Assembly (NCBI GenBank): GCA_945861405.1
Contig: CAMAUL010000009.1
Coordinates: 1-63,092, forward strand
Direction of reading: 5' to 3'
From: Candidatus Methylobacter oryzae
GTDB lineage: Bacteria; Pseudomonadota; Gammaproteobacteria; Methylococcales; Methylomonadaceae
DNA length: 63,092 nucleotides
In this document: in pieces, positions 2,842 to 62,806 of the stretch
Layout of the letters: every line of letters begins with the position of its first letter
Numbering within the stretch: the first letter of the stretch is position 1
Program-made: the position numbers and the translations under genes
The notes under the pieces: model-generated
Seen by the model: only the letters and a program-made list of their open reading frames with translations
Told to the model about the DNA's origin: nothing
Databases searched by the model: none

Positions 2842-3030
2842 AAACATTGTGTCCGGGGTAAATACCCCATACGCATCAAGCTAAGCAAAAAGTCCGTATA
2901 GCCAATCAATAAAATGCAAGCTTGTGAGTAACTACTCACCCCTTTTTTAACCGCAAAGCCGATTCTTACTGTCCAAGGCCAGCTTTGGACTCCAGAAAGT
3001 ATGCTATCGGAGTTCAAAGCTTCCGCTCCT

Positions 3031-3076
3031 CGGCAACTGCTCCTGCGTTGCTCTACCTCCTGCATCCATGCAGTCG
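3031..3076 (-). repeat. Family A repeat, copy 1
   Basis: The complement of CGACTGCATGGATGCAGGAG followed by GTAGAGCAACGCAGGAGCAG and TTGCCG. It contains the palindrome CTGCATGGATGCAG and a shorter ACTGC/GCAGT end pair. Confidence 0.85.
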
Positions 3077-3212
3077 TGCTCACGCCCCTTACCTACATCC
3101 ATGTAGGCAAAGCTGGCTTTGAACATTACAGAAGCGGGCATTAGATAGGGTGAGTAGTTACGCTTGTGATTAATAAACCAGAAGGACACAAAGTTTTTAC
3201 CCCCGTTTTTCT

Positions 3213-3260
3213 CGGCAACCGCTCCATGCGTTGCTCTACCTCCTGCATCCATACAGTCGT
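3213..3260 (-). repeat. Family A repeat, copy 2
   Basis: Same orientation as copy 1 but with the variant CGACTGTATGGATGCAGGAG and CGCATGGAGCGGTTGCCGAG. Two copies in one element suggest internal duplication. Confidence 0.85.
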
Positions 3261-4290: not shown

Positions 4291-4499
4291 ACACAAGTAT
4301 TTTAAAGCACGTCATCCCGGCAGGGATTGCCGGGATCCAGAAGCCATGGATGGCGATACCGAAAACAGACAACAATATCAAGCATTCACATCCCTGTGCT
4401 CTCGGCAACTGCTCCTGCATTGCTCTACCTCCTGCATCCATGCAGTCGTGGATTCCGGCAATCCCTGCCGGAATGACGGTGTACCGCAGACACTTGTGT
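4291..4499. repeat. Composite hairpin element, copy A
   Basis: The outer ends ACACAAGT (4291-4298) and ACTTGTGT (4492-4499) are inverted. Inside each is a hairpin-forming inverted repeat: CGTCATCCCGGCAGGGATTG on the left and CAATCCCTGCCGGAATGACG on the right. The interior holds a family A copy. A second copy in opposite orientation lies at 62589-62806. Such a structure is typical of a non-autonomous miniature element. Confidence 0.75.
4403..4449 (-). repeat. Family A repeat, copy 3
   Basis: A near-consensus copy inside composite element A, directly abutting the right-hand GGATTCCGGCAATCC arm. Confidence 0.85.
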
Positions 4500-13283: not shown

Positions 13284-13417
13284 GATTGTTTAGTGTGTTT
13301 GTTGAATTGAAAGTATTTTACCCTATATAAGGTCGGCATGATAAATCACAAGGCTTTTGATGGGGCAAGCTGTGCTACATTACGCGCACCAAACGATAAA
13401 CCCGTATAAATTAAAAT

Positions 13418-13510
13418 AGAACGCAGATGACGCTGATAACTATGATGAACGCTGATAATTCAAGAAAAATCTTACATAATCATAACTATCAGCGTCATCT
13501 GCGTTCCATT
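13418..13510. repeat. Family B inverted-repeat element, copy 1
   Basis: GAACGCAGATGACGCTGATA at the left and its exact complement at the right enclose about 50 bp. The pairing extends with two mismatches to about 28 bp. It ends 8 bases before the SPL-type gene. Confidence 0.8.
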
Positions 13511-13518
13511 GTGCCTTT

Positions 13519-17681: not shown

Positions 17682-17772
17682 GGCGGTTTCACTTTGTGCT
17701 CTAACGAGTCGCGTTACGACTGCTGGATGCAGGAGGTAGAGTAACGCAGGAGCAGTTACCGAGCAAACCGCC
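17682..17772. repeat. Family E repeat interrupted by family A
   Basis: It starts GCGGTTTCACTTTGTGCTCT and ends AGCAAACCGCC like the copy at 8495-8539, but the segment just before the right end is replaced by a complete family A repeat. This is nested insertion of A into E. Confidence 0.7.
17717..17762 (+). repeat. Family A repeat, copy 5
   Basis: CGACTGCTGGATGCAGGAGG then TAGAGTAACGCAGGAGCAGT, with a small change in the first palindrome. Inserted in family E. Confidence 0.8.
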
Positions 17773-21168: not shown

Positions 21169-23949
21169 TTAGTGGGCTTCATCCCAATTATTTCCAATAC
21201 CTATGTCGACAATCAGCGGCACATCAAGATCGGCCGCTGTACACATCAGGGTTCTGATATTCGCCGCGCAGTCGCCGACATGATCTTCGGCAATTTCAAA
21301 CACCAGTTCATCATGCACCTGCATGATCATTTTGGCATCCGGTTTATCCCGATACAACCACCGGTCGGCGGCAATCATGGCACGTTTAATAATGTCGGCA
21401 GCAGTACCCTGCATCGGCGCATTAATAGCCGTGCGTTCGGCGTATTGGCGGCGTGCCGCGTTGCGCGAGTCGATCTCCGGTAAATACAGCCGCCTACCGA
21501 ACAGAGTTTCAACATAGCCTTGTTCGCGGGCCAGTTCCCTGATGCTGTCCATGTAATTTTTGACGCCCGGATAACGGGTAAAATACAAATCGATATACGA
21601 TTGCGCCTGGCTGCGCGACAAACCCAGCTGCTGCGCCAAGCCAAAGGCTGACATGCCGTAAATCAGTCCGAAGTTGATGGCTTTGGCCGAACGGCGCAAA
21701 TCGGTGGTGACCTGCTCGGGAGCGACGCCAAAAACCTCGGCCGCTGTAGCCCGGTGGATATCCAGCCCTTCGCTAAATGCTTTTACCAAGCCTGCATCTT
21801 GCGACAAATGCGCCATGATACGCAATTCAATTTGCGAATAATCGGCGGCGACTATTTTTTTGCCTTCCGGGGCGATAAACGCCTGCCGGATTTTTCGGCC
21901 TTCCTCGCTACGTATCGGAATATTCTGCAAATTAGGGTCTGAGGAAGACAATCTGCCCGTTGCGGCGACCGCCTGATGGTACGAGGTATGAATCCGACCG
22001 GTTTGCCCGTCAACCTGTTGCGGCAGCTTATCGGTATAGGTTGACTTGAGCTTGCTCAAACTACGGTACTCCAGAATCAGTTTGGGCAGGGGATAATCGA
22101 GAGCCAATTCCTGTAGCACCGACTCTTCCGTTGACGGCTGGCCTTTGGGTGTCTTCTTGAGCACCGGCAGTTTCTGCTGGTCATACAATATATCCTGAAT
22201 CTGCTTGGGCGAACCCAGATTGAAGGTTTGCCCTGCCAAATCGTGAGCGTGTTGTTCCAGCGAGATAATCTGGCTGGAAAGCTCAAGACTTTGCTGCGCA
22301 AGCATCGCGGCATCAATCAATACGCCGTTGTTTTCGATGCGGGCCAGTACGCTGATCAGCGGCACTTCCATTTCCGTATAAAGGTTAAGCAATCGGGGCT
22401 GCTGCGCCAGCTTACCGGACAGTACCTGATGCAGTTGCAGGGTGATGTCGGCATCCTCTGCGGCGTACGGTGCGGCTTGTTCTATCGGCACCTCCTGGAA
22501 GCCTATTTGTTTGACGCCTTTTCCGGCCACATCTTCGTAATGGACGGTTTCAACGCCCAGATATTCTTTAGCCAGATCATCCATATTGTGCTTGGTCGCG
22601 GTGCTGTTTAACACATAGGATTCGAGCATGGTGTCGTGAGCAATGCCACACAGTGCAATGCCGTGATTGGCCAGTACATGCATATCGTATTTCAGGTTTT
22701 GCCCGAGTTTGGCTTTGTGCGGGTTTTCCAGCAGAGGCCGTAGTTTTTCCAGTATTTCCGAACGGTTTAGTTGATCCGGCACGCCAGGATAGTCGTGGGC
22801 CAAAGGCACATAAGCGGCTTTGCCCGGCGTTACCGCAAAGGACACGCCGACGATCTGCGCCTTGCTGTAATCCAGGCAGGTGGTTTCGGTGTCGAACGCA
22901 AACAAGTCGGCCTTTTCCAGTTGGGCCAGCCAATCGTTAAAGTGTTGCTCGGTTAAAATGGTTTCAAAGCTGGAGTCGATTTTGGCAGGCTTATCTTCAG
23001 TCGGCGCTGCTTCAACAGGCCTAGTTCTGATTGTTGCCGAAGAGCTTGTCTTGGACTCAGCGGAAGGATTATTCAGCATGTTCAACCAGGAGGTAAATCC
23101 CAGGTCTGACAGTAAATTCCTAAGCTCCGCCAGATCCATCGGTTGCTGTTTCAAGTCATCGATGCCGTAAGGCAAATTCAGGTCGCATTTAATGGTGGTC
23201 AGTTGTTTGGATAAAGGAAGCTTGTCCAAAGTGGCGCGCAGGTTTTCGCCGATTTTACCGCCGATTTCATTTGCGTGGGCGATCAGGTTTTCCAAGGTCT
23301 GGTATTGCTCCAGCCATTTTGCCGCTGTTTTGGGGCCGACTTTGGGTACGCCGGGAATATTGTCGACGGTGTCGCCGATCAGGGCCAGATAATCGATAAT
23401 CTGCTCAGGCCTGACGCCGAATTTATCGAACACGCCCTGAATATCCATGCGCGTGTTGGACATGGTGTTTTCCAGGATAATGTGTTCGGTAACCAGCTGC
23501 GCCATATCCTTGTCGCCGGTGGAAATAATAACGTCGTAGCCTTGTTGCTCGGCGTGTTGCGCCAAGGCCCCCAGAACATCGTCGGCTTCAACGCCGGACT
23601 CGATAATCAACGGCAGACCCATCGCCCGAATCAGATTGTGCAGCGGGGCAATCTGCACCCGCAAATCGTCAGGCATCGGCGGGCGATGGGCTTTGTACTG
23701 ATCGTAAAGCTCATTACGGAAGGTTTTGCCAGGCGCATCGAAGACCACGGTGATGTAGTCGCTGTGATAGTCGGAGATCAGTTTGCGCAGCATGTTGCTG
23801 ACGCCGTAAATGGCGTTAGTAGGCTCGCCGTTCGCGTTGGTTAGCGGCGGAATGGCATGGTAAGCGCGAAATAAAAAGGACGAGCCGTCAACCAGAATCA
23901 GGCGTTCCCTTCGGCTAGGCTCAGGATAGGTTTGCGTTTGTTGGGACAT
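21169..23949 (-). CDS. polA: DNA polymerase I
   Basis: About 926 residues from MSQQTQTYPEPSRRERLILV; an in-frame ATG at 23964 would add five residues. The 5'-3' exonuclease (1-300; DGSSFLFRAYHA), the 3'-5' proofreading domain (FDTETTCLDY retains the metal-binding DxE) and the polymerase palm motifs DYSQIELR and QVHDELVFE are all present. It repairs DNA and removes primers. The N-terminal YPEPSRRER is encoded by a family C repeat just before the first conserved strand LILVDGSS. Confidence 0.97.
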   Translation of the reverse strand: MSQQTQTYPEPSRRERLILVDGSSFLFRAYHAIPPLTNANGEPTNAIYGVSNMLRKLISDYHSDYITVVFDAPGKTFRNELYDQYKAHRPPMPDDLRVQIAPLHNLIRAMGLPLIIESGVEADDVLGALAQHAEQQGYDVIISTGDKDMAQLVTEHIILENTMSNTRMDIQGVFDKFGVRPEQIIDYLALIGDTVDNIPGVPKVGPKTAAKWLEQYQTLENLIAHANEIGGKIGENLRATLDKLPLSKQLTTIKCDLNLPYGIDDLKQQPMDLAELRNLLSDLGFTSWLNMLNNPSAESKTSSSATIRTRPVEAAPTEDKPAKIDSSFETILTEQHFNDWLAQLEKADLFAFDTETTCLDYSKAQIVGVSFAVTPGKAAYVPLAHDYPGVPDQLNRSEILEKLRPLLENPHKAKLGQNLKYDMHVLANHGIALCGIAHDTMLESYVLNSTATKHNMDDLAKEYLGVETVHYEDVAGKGVKQIGFQEVPIEQAAPYAAEDADITLQLHQVLSGKLAQQPRLLNLYTEMEVPLISVLARIENNGVLIDAAMLAQQSLELSSQIISLEQHAHDLAGQTFNLGSPKQIQDILYDQQKLPVLKKTPKGQPSTEESVLQELALDYPLPKLILEYRSLSKLKSTYTDKLPQQVDGQTGRIHTSYHQAVAATGRLSSSDPNLQNIPIRSEEGRKIRQAFIAPEGKKIVAADYSQIELRIMAHLSQDAGLVKAFSEGLDIHRATAAEVFGVAPEQVTTDLRRSAKAINFGLIYGMSAFGLAQQLGLSRSQAQSYIDLYFTRYPGVKNYMDSIRELAREQGYVETLFGRRLYLPEIDSRNAARRQYAERTAINAPMQGTAADIIKRAMIAADRWLYRDKPDAKMIMQVHDELVFEIAEDHVGDCAANIRTLMCTAADLDVPLIVDIGIGNNWDEAH
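23907..23930 (+). repeat. Family C repeat in polA
   Basis: CCCTTCGGCTAGGCTCAGGA then TAGG; read on the coding strand as YPEPSRR ahead of the first conserved strand of PolA. Confidence 0.85.
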
Positions 23950-23982
23950 AAGATTTAGTGGCAAAGTTAAAGAGGCTAGGCG

Positions 23983-26175
23983 TCAGGTTTTGCGCTTAAC
24001 ATCTACGATATTAGGCAATTGACTTATTTTATTAAGCACTTGGCTTAACTGATCGGTGTTTTCAATTTGAATGCTCAAATTGAGCAGCGCTGAAAAATCG
24101 GGATGCGTATCCAGCGCCGCATTGGAAATATGGATTTTTGCCTGGGCCAAAATCTGGGTCACATCACTCAGCAAATTATGCGAGTTAAAGGCATGAATAA
24201 CAATAGGCACCACATAGCTGGCCTTTTTTGCGCCCCAGTTAACCGAAATCAGCTGGGCCTGTTTTTCGGGATCCAGGTGCAAAATATTTTCACAGTCTTG
24301 GCGATGGATGGTAATGCCTTTCTTATGAGAAATATAGCCGATAATGTCATTGCCCTGAATCGGCGAGCAGCACTGGGCAAACGAGGTCAGCACATTATCA
24401 ATGCCGGCTACGGAAACTACGGATTTAGCCTCGGTTTTTTTACCTTGAAGGGCCTGCCCTGAGCGTAGCCGAAGGGGCGGCGTTTCCAGTTCAGGCACCT
24501 TAAAAAACGCCGCCAGCTGGCGGTTGTTAATATCGCTACGGCCTATGGCTTCGAGCAACTTGTCGGTATCAGGCTGATGAAAATGTTTAGCCAGCTCCGC
24601 CAGATTGAGCATTTTTAAGCCAAGACGTTGGCTTTCCTTGTCCAGAATAGCCTTGCCTGTCGCTATGTTCTGGGCTTGTTGCTGATTTTTAAACCAGCTT
24701 TTGACTTTGCCGATCGCCGCCGATGTTTTCAAATAGCCCAGATTGGGGTCGATCCAGTTATGATTGGGGCCGCCCTCTTTGGCGGTTAAAATTCTTACCT
24801 GCTCACCTGATTTTAAGTTGTAAGTCAGAGGCACAATGCGACCGTTCACTTTTGCCCCGCGACAACGGTGACCTATTTCGGTATGAATTGCATAGGCAAA
24901 ATCCAGCGGCGTAGCGCCTTTAACCAGATCGATTAATTTTCCGGCCGGAGTTAAAACGTAGACGCGGTCATTAAATAATTCGCTACGGAAATTTTCGGCT
25001 AGCACATCGTCGCCGCCTTCCTTTCGACTGCTGGTTTCTTCCAGCAACTTGCGCAACGAGGCGATGTTTTTTTCGATGGCCGCGTCATGCTTGCCGCCTT
25101 CTTTGTAAGACCAGTGCGCGGCAACTCCCAGCTCGGCAAAGTCGTGCATTTGTTGGGTGCGGATTTGTACCTCGATACGGTTGCCGTCAGCATCGATAAT
25201 GACGGTATGCAAGGACTGGTAGCCGTTTTCTTTGGGATTGGCGATGTAATCGTCAAATTCCTTAGGCACGGTTTGCCAAAGGCTATGCACGACACCCAAA
25301 GTGGCATAGCAGGCGGTCAGGTTATCGACTATCACGCGCACCGCCAACAGATCATACAGCTCGTCTATATCCAGCTGCTTGCGGCGCATCTTTTTCCAGA
25401 TGCTATAAATATGTTTAGGACGTCCATATATCTCGGAAGAAATTCCCCCGGCAATTGCTCCATGCATTGCTCTACCTCCTGCATCCATGCAGTCGTCTTC
25501 GGCGAGCTTTTTCTGTAACAGGACAATGAAGCTATTAATACAGTTTTCCCGCTGCACACGGTTATCGGTCAGCGACTTGGCGATGCGGCGGTAGGATTGG
25601 GGTTTCAGATAGCGGAAGGCCATGTCCTCCAGCTCCCACTTTAGCTGGTGAATACCCATCCGGTTGGCTATCGGCGCATAAATATCCAGCGTTTCCTGGG
25701 CAATAAAACGCCTCAATTCATACGACTCTTTGGGTAAAACCTTAAGCCGTTGAACCCGGTAAGCCAGCTTTATCAACACGGCGCGGACATCCCGAGTCAT
25801 GGACAGCAGCATCCGGCGCAAGGTTTCCGTTTGATTTGGCTGGTCGGTCATTTCCAGGGAATAAACGGTTAACTTATTCAACCAGTTAACATCGTCAACC
25901 AGCGTTGCAACCGTATCGCCGAACTGTTGCTTGATATTGGGCTTGGGATTTAGAGTGGCCAAACGCGGATCGCTTAAGATCGCGGCGAGGATGGTGTCCA
26001 GATCGACATTAAAATCCATCAAGACTGCCGCCACCTCAACGCCCTTGGGGCGAAAATACTGGGGGTCTTCAGGAATTAGCGCAATAATCGCCAGCGCCCG
26101 GTTTATTTGTTCAGTATCGGGCGCGGCAAATCCGCTAAAAAGCTGTTTATTCGATTCGGTTTTTTTTTGCATCAA
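23983..26175 (-). CDS. relA: GTP pyrophosphokinase RelA with two repeat-encoded insertions
   Basis: 730 residues. The domain order is a pseudo-hydrolase (1-200), ppGpp synthetase (245-390; YGRPKHIYSIWKKM, NPKENGYQSLHT), TGS (about 405-465), then helical, zinc-finger-like (CCSPIQGNDIIGYIS) and ACT domains. The hydrolase HDxxED site is degraded (LSDPR) and LADRLHN is replaced by LAYRVQR, so this is the monofunctional RelA rather than SpoT. It makes (p)ppGpp on starved ribosomes. Residues 229-244 (CMDAGGRAMHGAIAGG) come from a family A repeat inserted in frame in the linker before the synthetase. A family C repeat encodes LRLRSGQAL near residues 567-575. Both lie between conserved domains, so function is probably retained. 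Confidence 0.95.
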   Translation of the reverse strand: MMQKKTESNKQLFSGFAAPDTEQINRALAIIALIPEDPQYFRPKGVEVAAVLMDFNVDLDTILAAILSDPRLATLNPKPNIKQQFGDTVATLVDDVNWLNKLTVYSLEMTDQPNQTETLRRMLLSMTRDVRAVLIKLAYRVQRLKVLPKESYELRRFIAQETLDIYAPIANRMGIHQLKWELEDMAFRYLKPQSYRRIAKSLTDNRVQRENCINSFIVLLQKKLAEDDCMDAGGRAMHGAIAGGISSEIYGRPKHIYSIWKKMRRKQLDIDELYDLLAVRVIVDNLTACYATLGVVHSLWQTVPKEFDDYIANPKENGYQSLHTVIIDADGNRIEVQIRTQQMHDFAELGVAAHWSYKEGGKHDAAIEKNIASLRKLLEETSSRKEGGDDVLAENFRSELFNDRVYVLTPAGKLIDLVKGATPLDFAYAIHTEIGHRCRGAKVNGRIVPLTYNLKSGEQVRILTAKEGGPNHNWIDPNLGYLKTSAAIGKVKSWFKNQQQAQNIATGKAILDKESQRLGLKMLNLAELAKHFHQPDTDKLLEAIGRSDINNRQLAAFFKVPELETPPLRLRSGQALQGKKTEAKSVVSVAGIDNVLTSFAQCCSPIQGNDIIGYISHKKGITIHRQDCENILHLDPEKQAQLISVNWGAKKASYVVPIVIHAFNSHNLLSDVTQILAQAKIHISNAALDTHPDFSALLNLSIQIENTDQLSQVLNKISQLPNIVDVKRKT
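24453..24476 (-). repeat. Family C repeat in relA
   Basis: On the minus strand CCCTTCGGCTACGCTCAGGG then CAGG, in opposite orientation to the copies in rsmG and polA; it is read as LRLRSGQA. Confidence 0.85.
25444..25496 (-). repeat. Family A repeat, copy 6, in frame inside relA
   Basis: The minus strand carries CGACTGCATGGATGCAGGAG, GTAGAGCAATGCATGGAGCA and ATTGCCGG. It contributes 16 codons (48 nt), leaving the relA frame open. Confidence 0.9.
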
Positions 26176-34990: not shown

Positions 34991-35092
34991 AAAGGGGGGC
35001 TGGTTCGACTGCATGGATGCAGGAGGTAGAGCACCAACAGTAGGCGCTTTAGGCGACGCAGGAGCAGTTGCCGAGGCCTCCCCTTTTTATTG
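34991..35092 (+). terminator. Terminator with a family A repeat in its loop
   Basis: AAAAGGGGGGC and GCCTCCCCTTTTT form the stem, with the U-run at the end. The loop region holds a complete family A repeat (35006-35073). It terminates the Ala/Lys/Pro-rich gene. Confidence 0.65.
35006..35073 (+). repeat. Family A repeat, copy 7, with internal insertion
   Basis: CGACTGCATGGATGCAGGAG then GTAGAGCA is followed by about 21 extra bases (CCAACAGTAGGCGCTTTAGG) before CGCAGGAGCAGTTGCCGAG. Confidence 0.85.
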
Positions 35093-51807: not shown

Positions 51808-51902
51808 ATGGAACGCTGATGACGCAGATAGTTAAGATCAAGTAAGATTTTTTAAATTATCTGTGTCCATCATATTTATCAGCGTCATCTGCGTTCCATT
51901 GT
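51808..51902. repeat. Family B inverted-repeat element, copy 3, inside the his operon
   Basis: GGAACGCTGATGACGCAGAT faces TCAGCGTCATCTGCGTTCC. It is flanked by GTAACTACTCAG at about 51787. It separates hisI from hisE. Confidence 0.8.
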
Positions 51903-51925
51903 ATTTGATAGCTGAGTCCTTACTC

Positions 51926-59179: not shown

Positions 59180-59339
59180 GTAACTACTCAGCGAAAAAAG
59201 AAATAGAACACGGATGACACTGATTAAACGGATAATCGCTGATTAAAAGCACAGCATAGTTTAAAAAATCCGTGTAAATCCGTCCTATCTGTGTCATCCG
59301 TGTTCTATTAATCGTAGATAGCATTCGCTGAATAGTTAC
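59180..59339. repeat. Family B inverted-repeat element, copy 4, with outer ends
   Basis: GTAACTACTCAGCGAA at the left and TTCGCTGAATAGTTAC at the right form outer inverted repeats. Inside, AGAACACGGATGACACTGAT faces TCTGTGTCATCCGTGTTCT. The inner core spans about 59202-59311. It fills most of the bcp-rdgC gap. Confidence 0.8.
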
Positions 59340-62588: not shown

Positions 62589-62806
62589 CGTCATTCCGGC
62601 AGGGATTGCCGGAATCCACGACTGCATGGATGCAGGAGGTAGAGCAATGCATGGAGCAATTGCCGAGCGCACAGGGATGTGAACAATAAATAAAAAAAGG
62701 TTTCATGCGACTAAAAATGATTATCGATCCCTGGGCACTTGCCATCCATGGCTACTGGATCCCGGCAATCCATGCCGGGATGACGTGCTTTAAAATACAC
62801 TTGTGT
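62589..62806. repeat. Composite hairpin element, copy B
   Basis: CGTCATTCCGGCAGGGATTG at the left and CAATCCATGCCGGGATGACG at the right, followed by TGCTTTAAAATACACTTGTG. It is inverted relative to copy A (4291-4499) and has a different, AT-rich middle. It fills the rsxB-metG gap. Confidence 0.75.
62619..62666 (+). repeat. Family A repeat, copy 8
   Basis: CGACTGCATGGATGCAGGAG then GTAGAGCAATGCATGGAGCA and ATTGCCGAG, almost identical to the copy in relA. It adjoins the left arm of composite element B. Confidence 0.9.

Follow-up and report, generated by a model that had tools for sequence, protein, structure and literature searches.

The DNA analysed here (the window, 63,092 nt in its whole length) belongs to a draft genome of Candidatus Methylobacter oryzae (3.58 Mb, 154 contigs, 93.6% completeness). 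It carries an open reading frame (ORF) which domain profiles identify as RelA (HD_4 at residues 44-175, RelA_SpoT at residues 251-361, TGS and ACT). Within this ORF lies a copy of a short dispersed repeat, element A, which contributes residues 229-244, CMDAGGRAMHGAIAGG, to the protein. The gene, the parts of the repeat and the other copies in the window are listed in Table 1.

Table 1. Position of relA, of the element A copy within it and of further element A copies in the window
Feature	Position	Strand	Remarks
relA ORF, 730 aa	23983-26175	minus	frame open through the insert
element A copy in relA, 48 nt, +16 codons	25448-25495 (unit CGAC...GCCGG)	minus	sense, phase 2; ends ambiguous by 1-2 nt
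hairpin H1 of relA copy, CTGCATGGATGCAG	25479-25492	minus	from fold and pair counts; 5-bp stem, TGGA loop
GTAG of relA copy	25472-25475	minus	one base 5' of H2
hairpin H2 of relA copy	25451-25470	minus	from fold and compensatory changes; 7-bp stem, one bulged A
element copy outside relA	62619-62666	plus	as relA copy except last base; at end of a CGTC-type palindromic repeat
47-nt copy	4402-4448	minus	at end of a CGTC-type repeat
47-nt copy	3030-3076	minus	coordinates from core match
48-nt copy	3212-3259	minus	
copy, one base shorter	17717-17762	plus	
long copy, 69 nt	35006-35074	plus	second repeat (GTAGGCGCTTTAGGCG type) within

An in-frame repeat copy in relA

An earlier note, made from the letters of the window, had proposed that a dispersed repeat entered relA in frame and added 16 codons, and this is borne out. 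The relA block 25449-25496 is identical to 62618-62665 of the window over 48 nt (48/48, 100%); the note's stretch 62619-62666, which differs in its last base, was fairly described as nearly identical. A further copy identical to the relA copy across the 48 nt is found at C36:21843-21890. The query protein found a counterpart in every one of the sixty relatives searched (paralogues counted), and the best 30 loci of those matches, the window's own included, were aligned. This alignment, which the note had suggested as a check, reveals the gap: residues 229-244 are absent from all 29 other loci, so that relatives do not share the residues, and the segment is the repeat itself over its 48 nt. The nearest relA among the best 30 loci, that of G012, encodes a RelA which is 96% identical and has no insert. 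At the DNA level, an exact 48-nt gap is present in each of eight relatives compared. The solved RelA structure 5iqr, which we take to be the E. coli protein, aligns on both sides of the insert with a 16-residue gap, as expected from the note's remark that E. coli RelA reads straight across this point.

Full identity across 48 nt between the relA copy and copies elsewhere marks the insertion as recent, as had been supposed; the empty sites of the relatives likewise support this. A native, strain-specific loop of RelA resembling the repeat by chance has a negligible probability and is rejected. In a pattern scan of the window allowing up to 3 mismatches the relA copy and the 62618-62665 copy were matched, with 0 matches in 100 shuffles, and this adds to the complete identity, the 29 loci without insert and the clean empty sites with their exact gaps. 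An assembly artefact is very improbable too. The genome is a fragmented and incomplete draft and repeats can mislead assemblers, but both flanks come from one relA, the frame is preserved, and the surplus between them is exactly 48 bases; moreover, equivalent copies within genes occur in the 3-contig genome G019.

Concerning its position, the insert had been assigned to the linker between hydrolase and synthetase. The two Pfam domains do flank it, with ...QKKLAE and ISSEIYGRPKHIYSIWKKM on either side of the turn where it sits, but it stands only 6 residues ahead of GRPKHIYSIWKKM, the start of the RelA_SpoT match, which places it at the entry of the synthetase domain and not mid-linker. The GRPK motif, presumably catalytic, follows 6 residues after the insert. 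This neighbourhood, together with the presence of the element in rpoS, another stress regulator, would suit a domesticated regulatory loop which alters RelA, for instance the balance of the synthetase domain. We consider this quite improbable, because just 1 of the 30 aligned relA loci has the insert and its 48 nt match other copies exactly, which leaves little time for adaptation, and because the element resides in many unrelated genes. Such a spread over genes with nothing in common suggests selfish DNA that is tolerated, and the effect of the insert on RelA and on ppGpp synthesis would most likely be none or slight.

A second dispersed repeat, unlike element A, lies in frame in the C-terminal part of the same relA (24452-24477, LRLRSGQAL; GCCTGCCCTGAGCGTAGCCGAAGGGG). 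It is also present in G012, and several other members of the genus have different extra residues there. A repeat of this type at 23906-23931, at the start of a 931-aa ORF (21169-23964) which by reading is DNA polymerase I, adds YPEPSRRER immediately ahead of LILVDGSS.

Unit, fold and distribution of element A

A 17-nt core of the element was matched 113 times in the own genome at up to 2 mismatches, evenly on both strands (57 and 56), and 0 times by a reversed control. One hundred of the 113 matches were listed, and 99 copies from this genome and 94 from G019 were aligned. The unit is 5'-CGAC...GCCGA-3' and measures 47 or 48 nt: 47-nt copies make up 42/99 in the own genome and 42/94 in G019, 48-nt copies 37/99 and 36/94, and other lengths are rarer. 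Of 80 non-redundant copies, 78 open with the four bases CGAC. By reading, the end sequences CGAC and CCGA show no more than a weak inverted match.

The limits of the unit follow from the joined flanks, which correspond to an uninterrupted site elsewhere in the examined DNA for 78 of 203 flank-deduplicated copies (tandem cases counted). Where empty sites are known, the element was inserted without target duplication and without deleted bases. With 173 copies reduced to 80 non-redundant flank pairs, a target of approximately [G/T]A^G emerges: position -1 is A in 75%, -2 is G or T in 77% and +1 is G in 76%. Element A frequently lies in or next to a different palindromic repeat, e.g. directly following one of the CGTC type, or within another copy of itself; tandem copies exist (L008), and some long copies contain a different repeat. 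Another dispersed repeat family with inverted arms (ATCAGCGTCATCTGCGTTCCATT type) is present in the window at 13405-13512, 51848-51910 and 59202-59311.

DNA and RNA energy models agree on two hairpins. The twelve pairs of H1 and H2 form in 92-99% of 144 distinct copies, which are related and not independent events, and a possible sixth pair of H1 in 70%. Changes on both sides of a pair were seen at 30-40 (TA 73, CG 59, TG 6), the strongest case, at 27-43 (CG 130, TA 8) and at 6-15 (GC 135, CG 5). As a control the register was slid by one position; of the nine shifted pairs, seven occur in 0-4% of copies, whereas the other two reach 95% (28-41) and 63% (30-39). One base ahead of H2, GTAG is found in 138 of the 144 distinct copies and GTGG in 1.

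Across the order, the core occurs at up to 1 mismatch in 86 of 201 genomes, with the highest counts in this genus. An exact 29-mer is also present, among the matches listed, in records of Pseudoalteromonas, Shewanella benthica, Rhodanobacter, Cycloclasticus and Sedimenticola. The element was found in 8 of 72,556 plasmid records, six of them from Pseudoalteromonas, and in 4 viral contigs; a search of phages gave no match. The first 36 nt of the element are matched in the BREX gene pglX of a Salmonella plasmid (NZ_CP133280.1, L415:3001-3036) and of a Moellerella plasmid (NZ_CP093250.1); the Salmonella copy is read in the same frame, NADDCMDAGGRATQDAKAD. This match on plasmids suggests gene transfer from an element-bearing bacterium.

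Element A within other genes

The repeat had been described as otherwise intergenic, which does not hold. About 14 of the 99 aligned copies of the own genome lie in ORFs (13 by in-silico removal, and rpoS), leuS and rpoS among them. Most of a bacterial genome is coding, and so modest a share indicates that genes are avoided by the element or purged of it. By profile, the in-frame hits of the own genome comprise leuS (editing domain), a UvrD/Rep-type helicase (UvrD_C), a PAS histidine kinase, a hybrid kinase with two receivers, a cobaltochelatase-type subunit, oligopeptidase A, a MurG-like glycosyltransferase (N and C domains of Pfam family 28), a SagB-like ORF and the N-terminal part of rpoS. 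Those of G019 comprise MurF ligase, a pyridine-nucleotide oxidoreductase, an M3 peptidase, an ORF with FlgJ domains, a molybdopterin oxidoreductase, an ABC transporter, a SAM methyltransferase and an ORF resembling PDH E1-alpha at a score below the model cut-off. Hits on named contigs are a TatD DNase, HypF, an alpha/beta hydrolase, a histidine kinase and an Lhr-type helicase.

Single ORFs show further variants. An ATP-grasp ORF of G019 (L338:1459-2583) harbours two separate in-frame copies. In a PAS-GGDEF-EAL ORF (L174, G000:C13:16412) the in-frame copy measures 69 nt and consists of element A plus an inserted repeat. The cobN ORFs of G019 (L337:12527-16963) and Candidatus Methylobacter titanis (L102:2081-6448) have a copy at the same place, 61 codons in, which may lie just upstream of the true start.

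So that the choice of sites would not favour intact ORFs, the reading frame was examined by removing the element in silico and calling a site genic if the spanning ORF has at least 60 codons on each side; 189 of the 193 copies from the own genome and G019, those with an alignment score of at least 60, were included. A spanning ORF was found at 29 of the 189 sites. At 27 of these 29 the length of the element is divisible by three and the ORF is open with the element, compared with a divisible length at 60 of the remaining 160 sites (Fisher P = 1.2e-8). Both exceptions are 47-nt copies of G019 (L306, and L324 at 15598) which would break the ORF formed by the joined flanks. The frame-preserving lengths inside ORFs are 48, 57 or 69 nt. 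The 47-nt and 48-nt forms amount to a natural experiment, which shows selection on frame.

The genic copies counted for their frame number 28, made up of the 27 sites with an open spanning ORF and rpoS, the second copy of the ATP-grasp ORF left out; the frame read as DDCMDAGGRAMHGAIAE is the commonest, with 16/28. Expected frames were derived from a target matrix based on 65 non-genic flanks and 18 ORFs (42,030 bases). Target preference as the sole cause of the favoured frame is rejected, since sense phase 2 accounts for 16/28 against 26% expected (P = 6e-4); leuS is counted in both genomes, and its removal gives 15/27 (P = 0.0013). Antisense copies number 5/28 against 60% expected from target preference (P = 6e-6), a scarcity which would fit the loss of copies adding stops or hydrophobic residues. 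Within the sense copies, target preference does account for phase 2 being commoner than phase 1 (16/22, 66% expected, P = 0.65). As to the genic status of these 28 ORFs, two match no family (L163, L296), L169 and the L337 copy at 2043 stood outside the family search, L006 was matched mainly on one side, and the L324 and L337 cobN copies may precede the true start.

The most unusual point is that rpoS and leuS contain the element at the same nucleotide in separated lineages, with sister species lacking it. The leuS site is empty in 19 of 21 genomes examined, and an exact 48-nt insert occupies the same site in the own genome and G019; the element is absent from G012 and G009 on one side and from G011 and G021 on the other. 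In rpoS it is found at one identical nucleotide in 7 of 22 aligned genes of the genus (own gene L387, G000:C18; others within L388-L398). G017 has a probable decayed copy and G016 is ambiguous; the copies of G011 and G001 each enclose a further A-like element, which in G011 comprises 48 nt at GTA^G (by eye). The carriers of the rpoS copy are scattered on a tree of 1,854 concatenated columns of RelA, LeuS and RpoS, in which the nearest relatives of the own genome, G012 and G009, have an rpoS without the element. The rpoS copies differ from the 48-nt consensus at 1 position in the own genome and at 2 in G021, 10 in G019, 8 in G002 and 11 in G022. The flanks of the own rpoS copy are closest to those of element-free G012 (6/87 differences, versus 21/84 to G021).

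Either of two histories would account for this pattern: the element entered again at one nucleotide, or it entered long ago and was then cleanly lost several times, with some of the copies refreshed. The rpoS copies read all share a CATG form, which favours one old insertion. It seems doubtful, if conceivable, that element A returns in a homing-like manner to the same nucleotide (rpoS TT^GG; leuS GACGA^) in separate Methylobacter lineages, so that frame-compatible, repeated gain and clean loss would switch short peptides in and out of RpoS, LeuRS and now RelA. With the same site in rpoS and leuS filled in some genomes and empty in others, it becomes possible to test directly how such elements are gained and lost. 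Moreover, RelA, RpoS and LeuRS with their natural 16-residue inserts are test cases for the absorption of foreign peptides by proteins.

Mobility and relation to known elements

Clean insertion, hairpins, GTAG and the lack of target duplication suggest the action of a Y1 single-strand transposase. We think it likely that element A is a selfish, non-autonomous, REP-like miniature mobile element, whose movement probably depends on a Y1/RAYT-type transposase acting in trans and which is tolerated at the turn of RelA. A RAYT/TnpA-REP-like enzyme would recognise the hairpins and GTAG and paste the element, and insertions which shift the frame or upset folding would be lost. The relA copy may have survived owing to the small Gly/Ala-rich loop, DCMDAGGRAMHGAIAG, which it would form at the turn entering the synthetase domain.

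The own genome encodes four Y1_Tnp domains, and every one of 23 genomes of the genus has at least one. None of the four own Y1 genes is flanked by element A, nor is any of 29 further loci taken from a longer match list. When 1.9 Mb of examined DNA was searched with the four own Y1 ORFs for a Y1 gene near an element copy, the matches were limited to a broken gene (L098) and a 19-residue fragment (L171). The broken, RAYT-like gene (L098:7191-7820) is situated about 100 bp from an intact copy of element A. Across the 23 genomes, the copy number by peptide match is weakly correlated with the Y1 count (Spearman 0.49, P = 0.017), with genome size and completeness as confounders.

The finding of no cognate transposase among the Y1 loci examined would suit ectopic recombination, template switching or repair synthesis as the process which brought the repeat into relA, and so would the short, near-identical and partly tandem copies. 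Constant ends, a target preference, copies in different genes with unrelated flanks and a structure preserved through changes on both sides of its pairs argue against these processes, which we therefore regard as improbable compared with transposition in trans.

Several known systems resemble element A in part. A classical MITE has terminal inverted repeats and a target-site duplication, neither of which characterises element A. Miniature elements derived from IS200/IS605 share with it the lack of target duplication, hairpins near both ends and Y1 transposases in the genome. IS200/IS605-type elements are recognised by a fixed tetra- or pentanucleotide at the left flank; element A has just the preference for [G/T]A at -2,-1, and no autonomous parent was found. 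Rickettsia palindromic elements (RPEs) keep the reading frame. They are alike in their in-frame residence in many unrelated genes and different in taxon, element A being of 47/48 nt with a CGAC start and GTAG between two hairpins.

RPE-1, RPE-4 and RPE-6 are dispersed palindromic repeats inside genes which add residues to unrelated proteins; RPE-4 and RPE-6 carry a CGTC tag, and intragenic copies are reported for both GTAG and CGTC REPs (PMC3733652). Compared by this tag (PMC3733652), element A does not match RPE-4 and RPE-6. The resemblance to Rickettsia palindromic elements, which the earlier note had pointed out, is therefore one of behaviour rather than of demonstrated membership, given the CGAC start, the internal GTAG and the lack of a CGTC tag. 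For REPs, a second source gives the rule that GTAG or GTGG lies 0-2 nt 5' of the hairpin, and describes REPs inside tnpA-REP genes with the frame kept (PMC6006769). Element A agrees with GTAG-tagged REPs and REPINs, which are thought to be moved by RAYT (TnpA-REP), in having GTAG 5' of a bulged hairpin, in high copy number and in some frame-keeping intragenic copies (PMC3733652, PMC6006769). GTAG-tagged REPs end in the tag, whereas the GTAG of element A is internal, with CGAC and H1 beginning 20 nt upstream, and the REPtron arrangement, a RAYT gene flanked by the repeat, is absent from the Y1 loci examined (own 4 and 29). Enterobacterial RU sequences, small mobile sequences which occur intragenically, are likewise MITE-like repeats able to contribute coding sequence; they are set apart by description, namely by a length of 103-168 bp, another sequence and another host (PMC2759123).

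Four sequence strings of the element A family had no match in the running text of the papers searched. Since frame-keeping REPs inside genes are in print (PMC3733652, PMC6006769), the kind of element is already known. The insertion of palindromic elements into coding sequence, a familiar phenomenon in Rickettsia, is now extended to a methanotroph genus, with empty sites and a target consensus.
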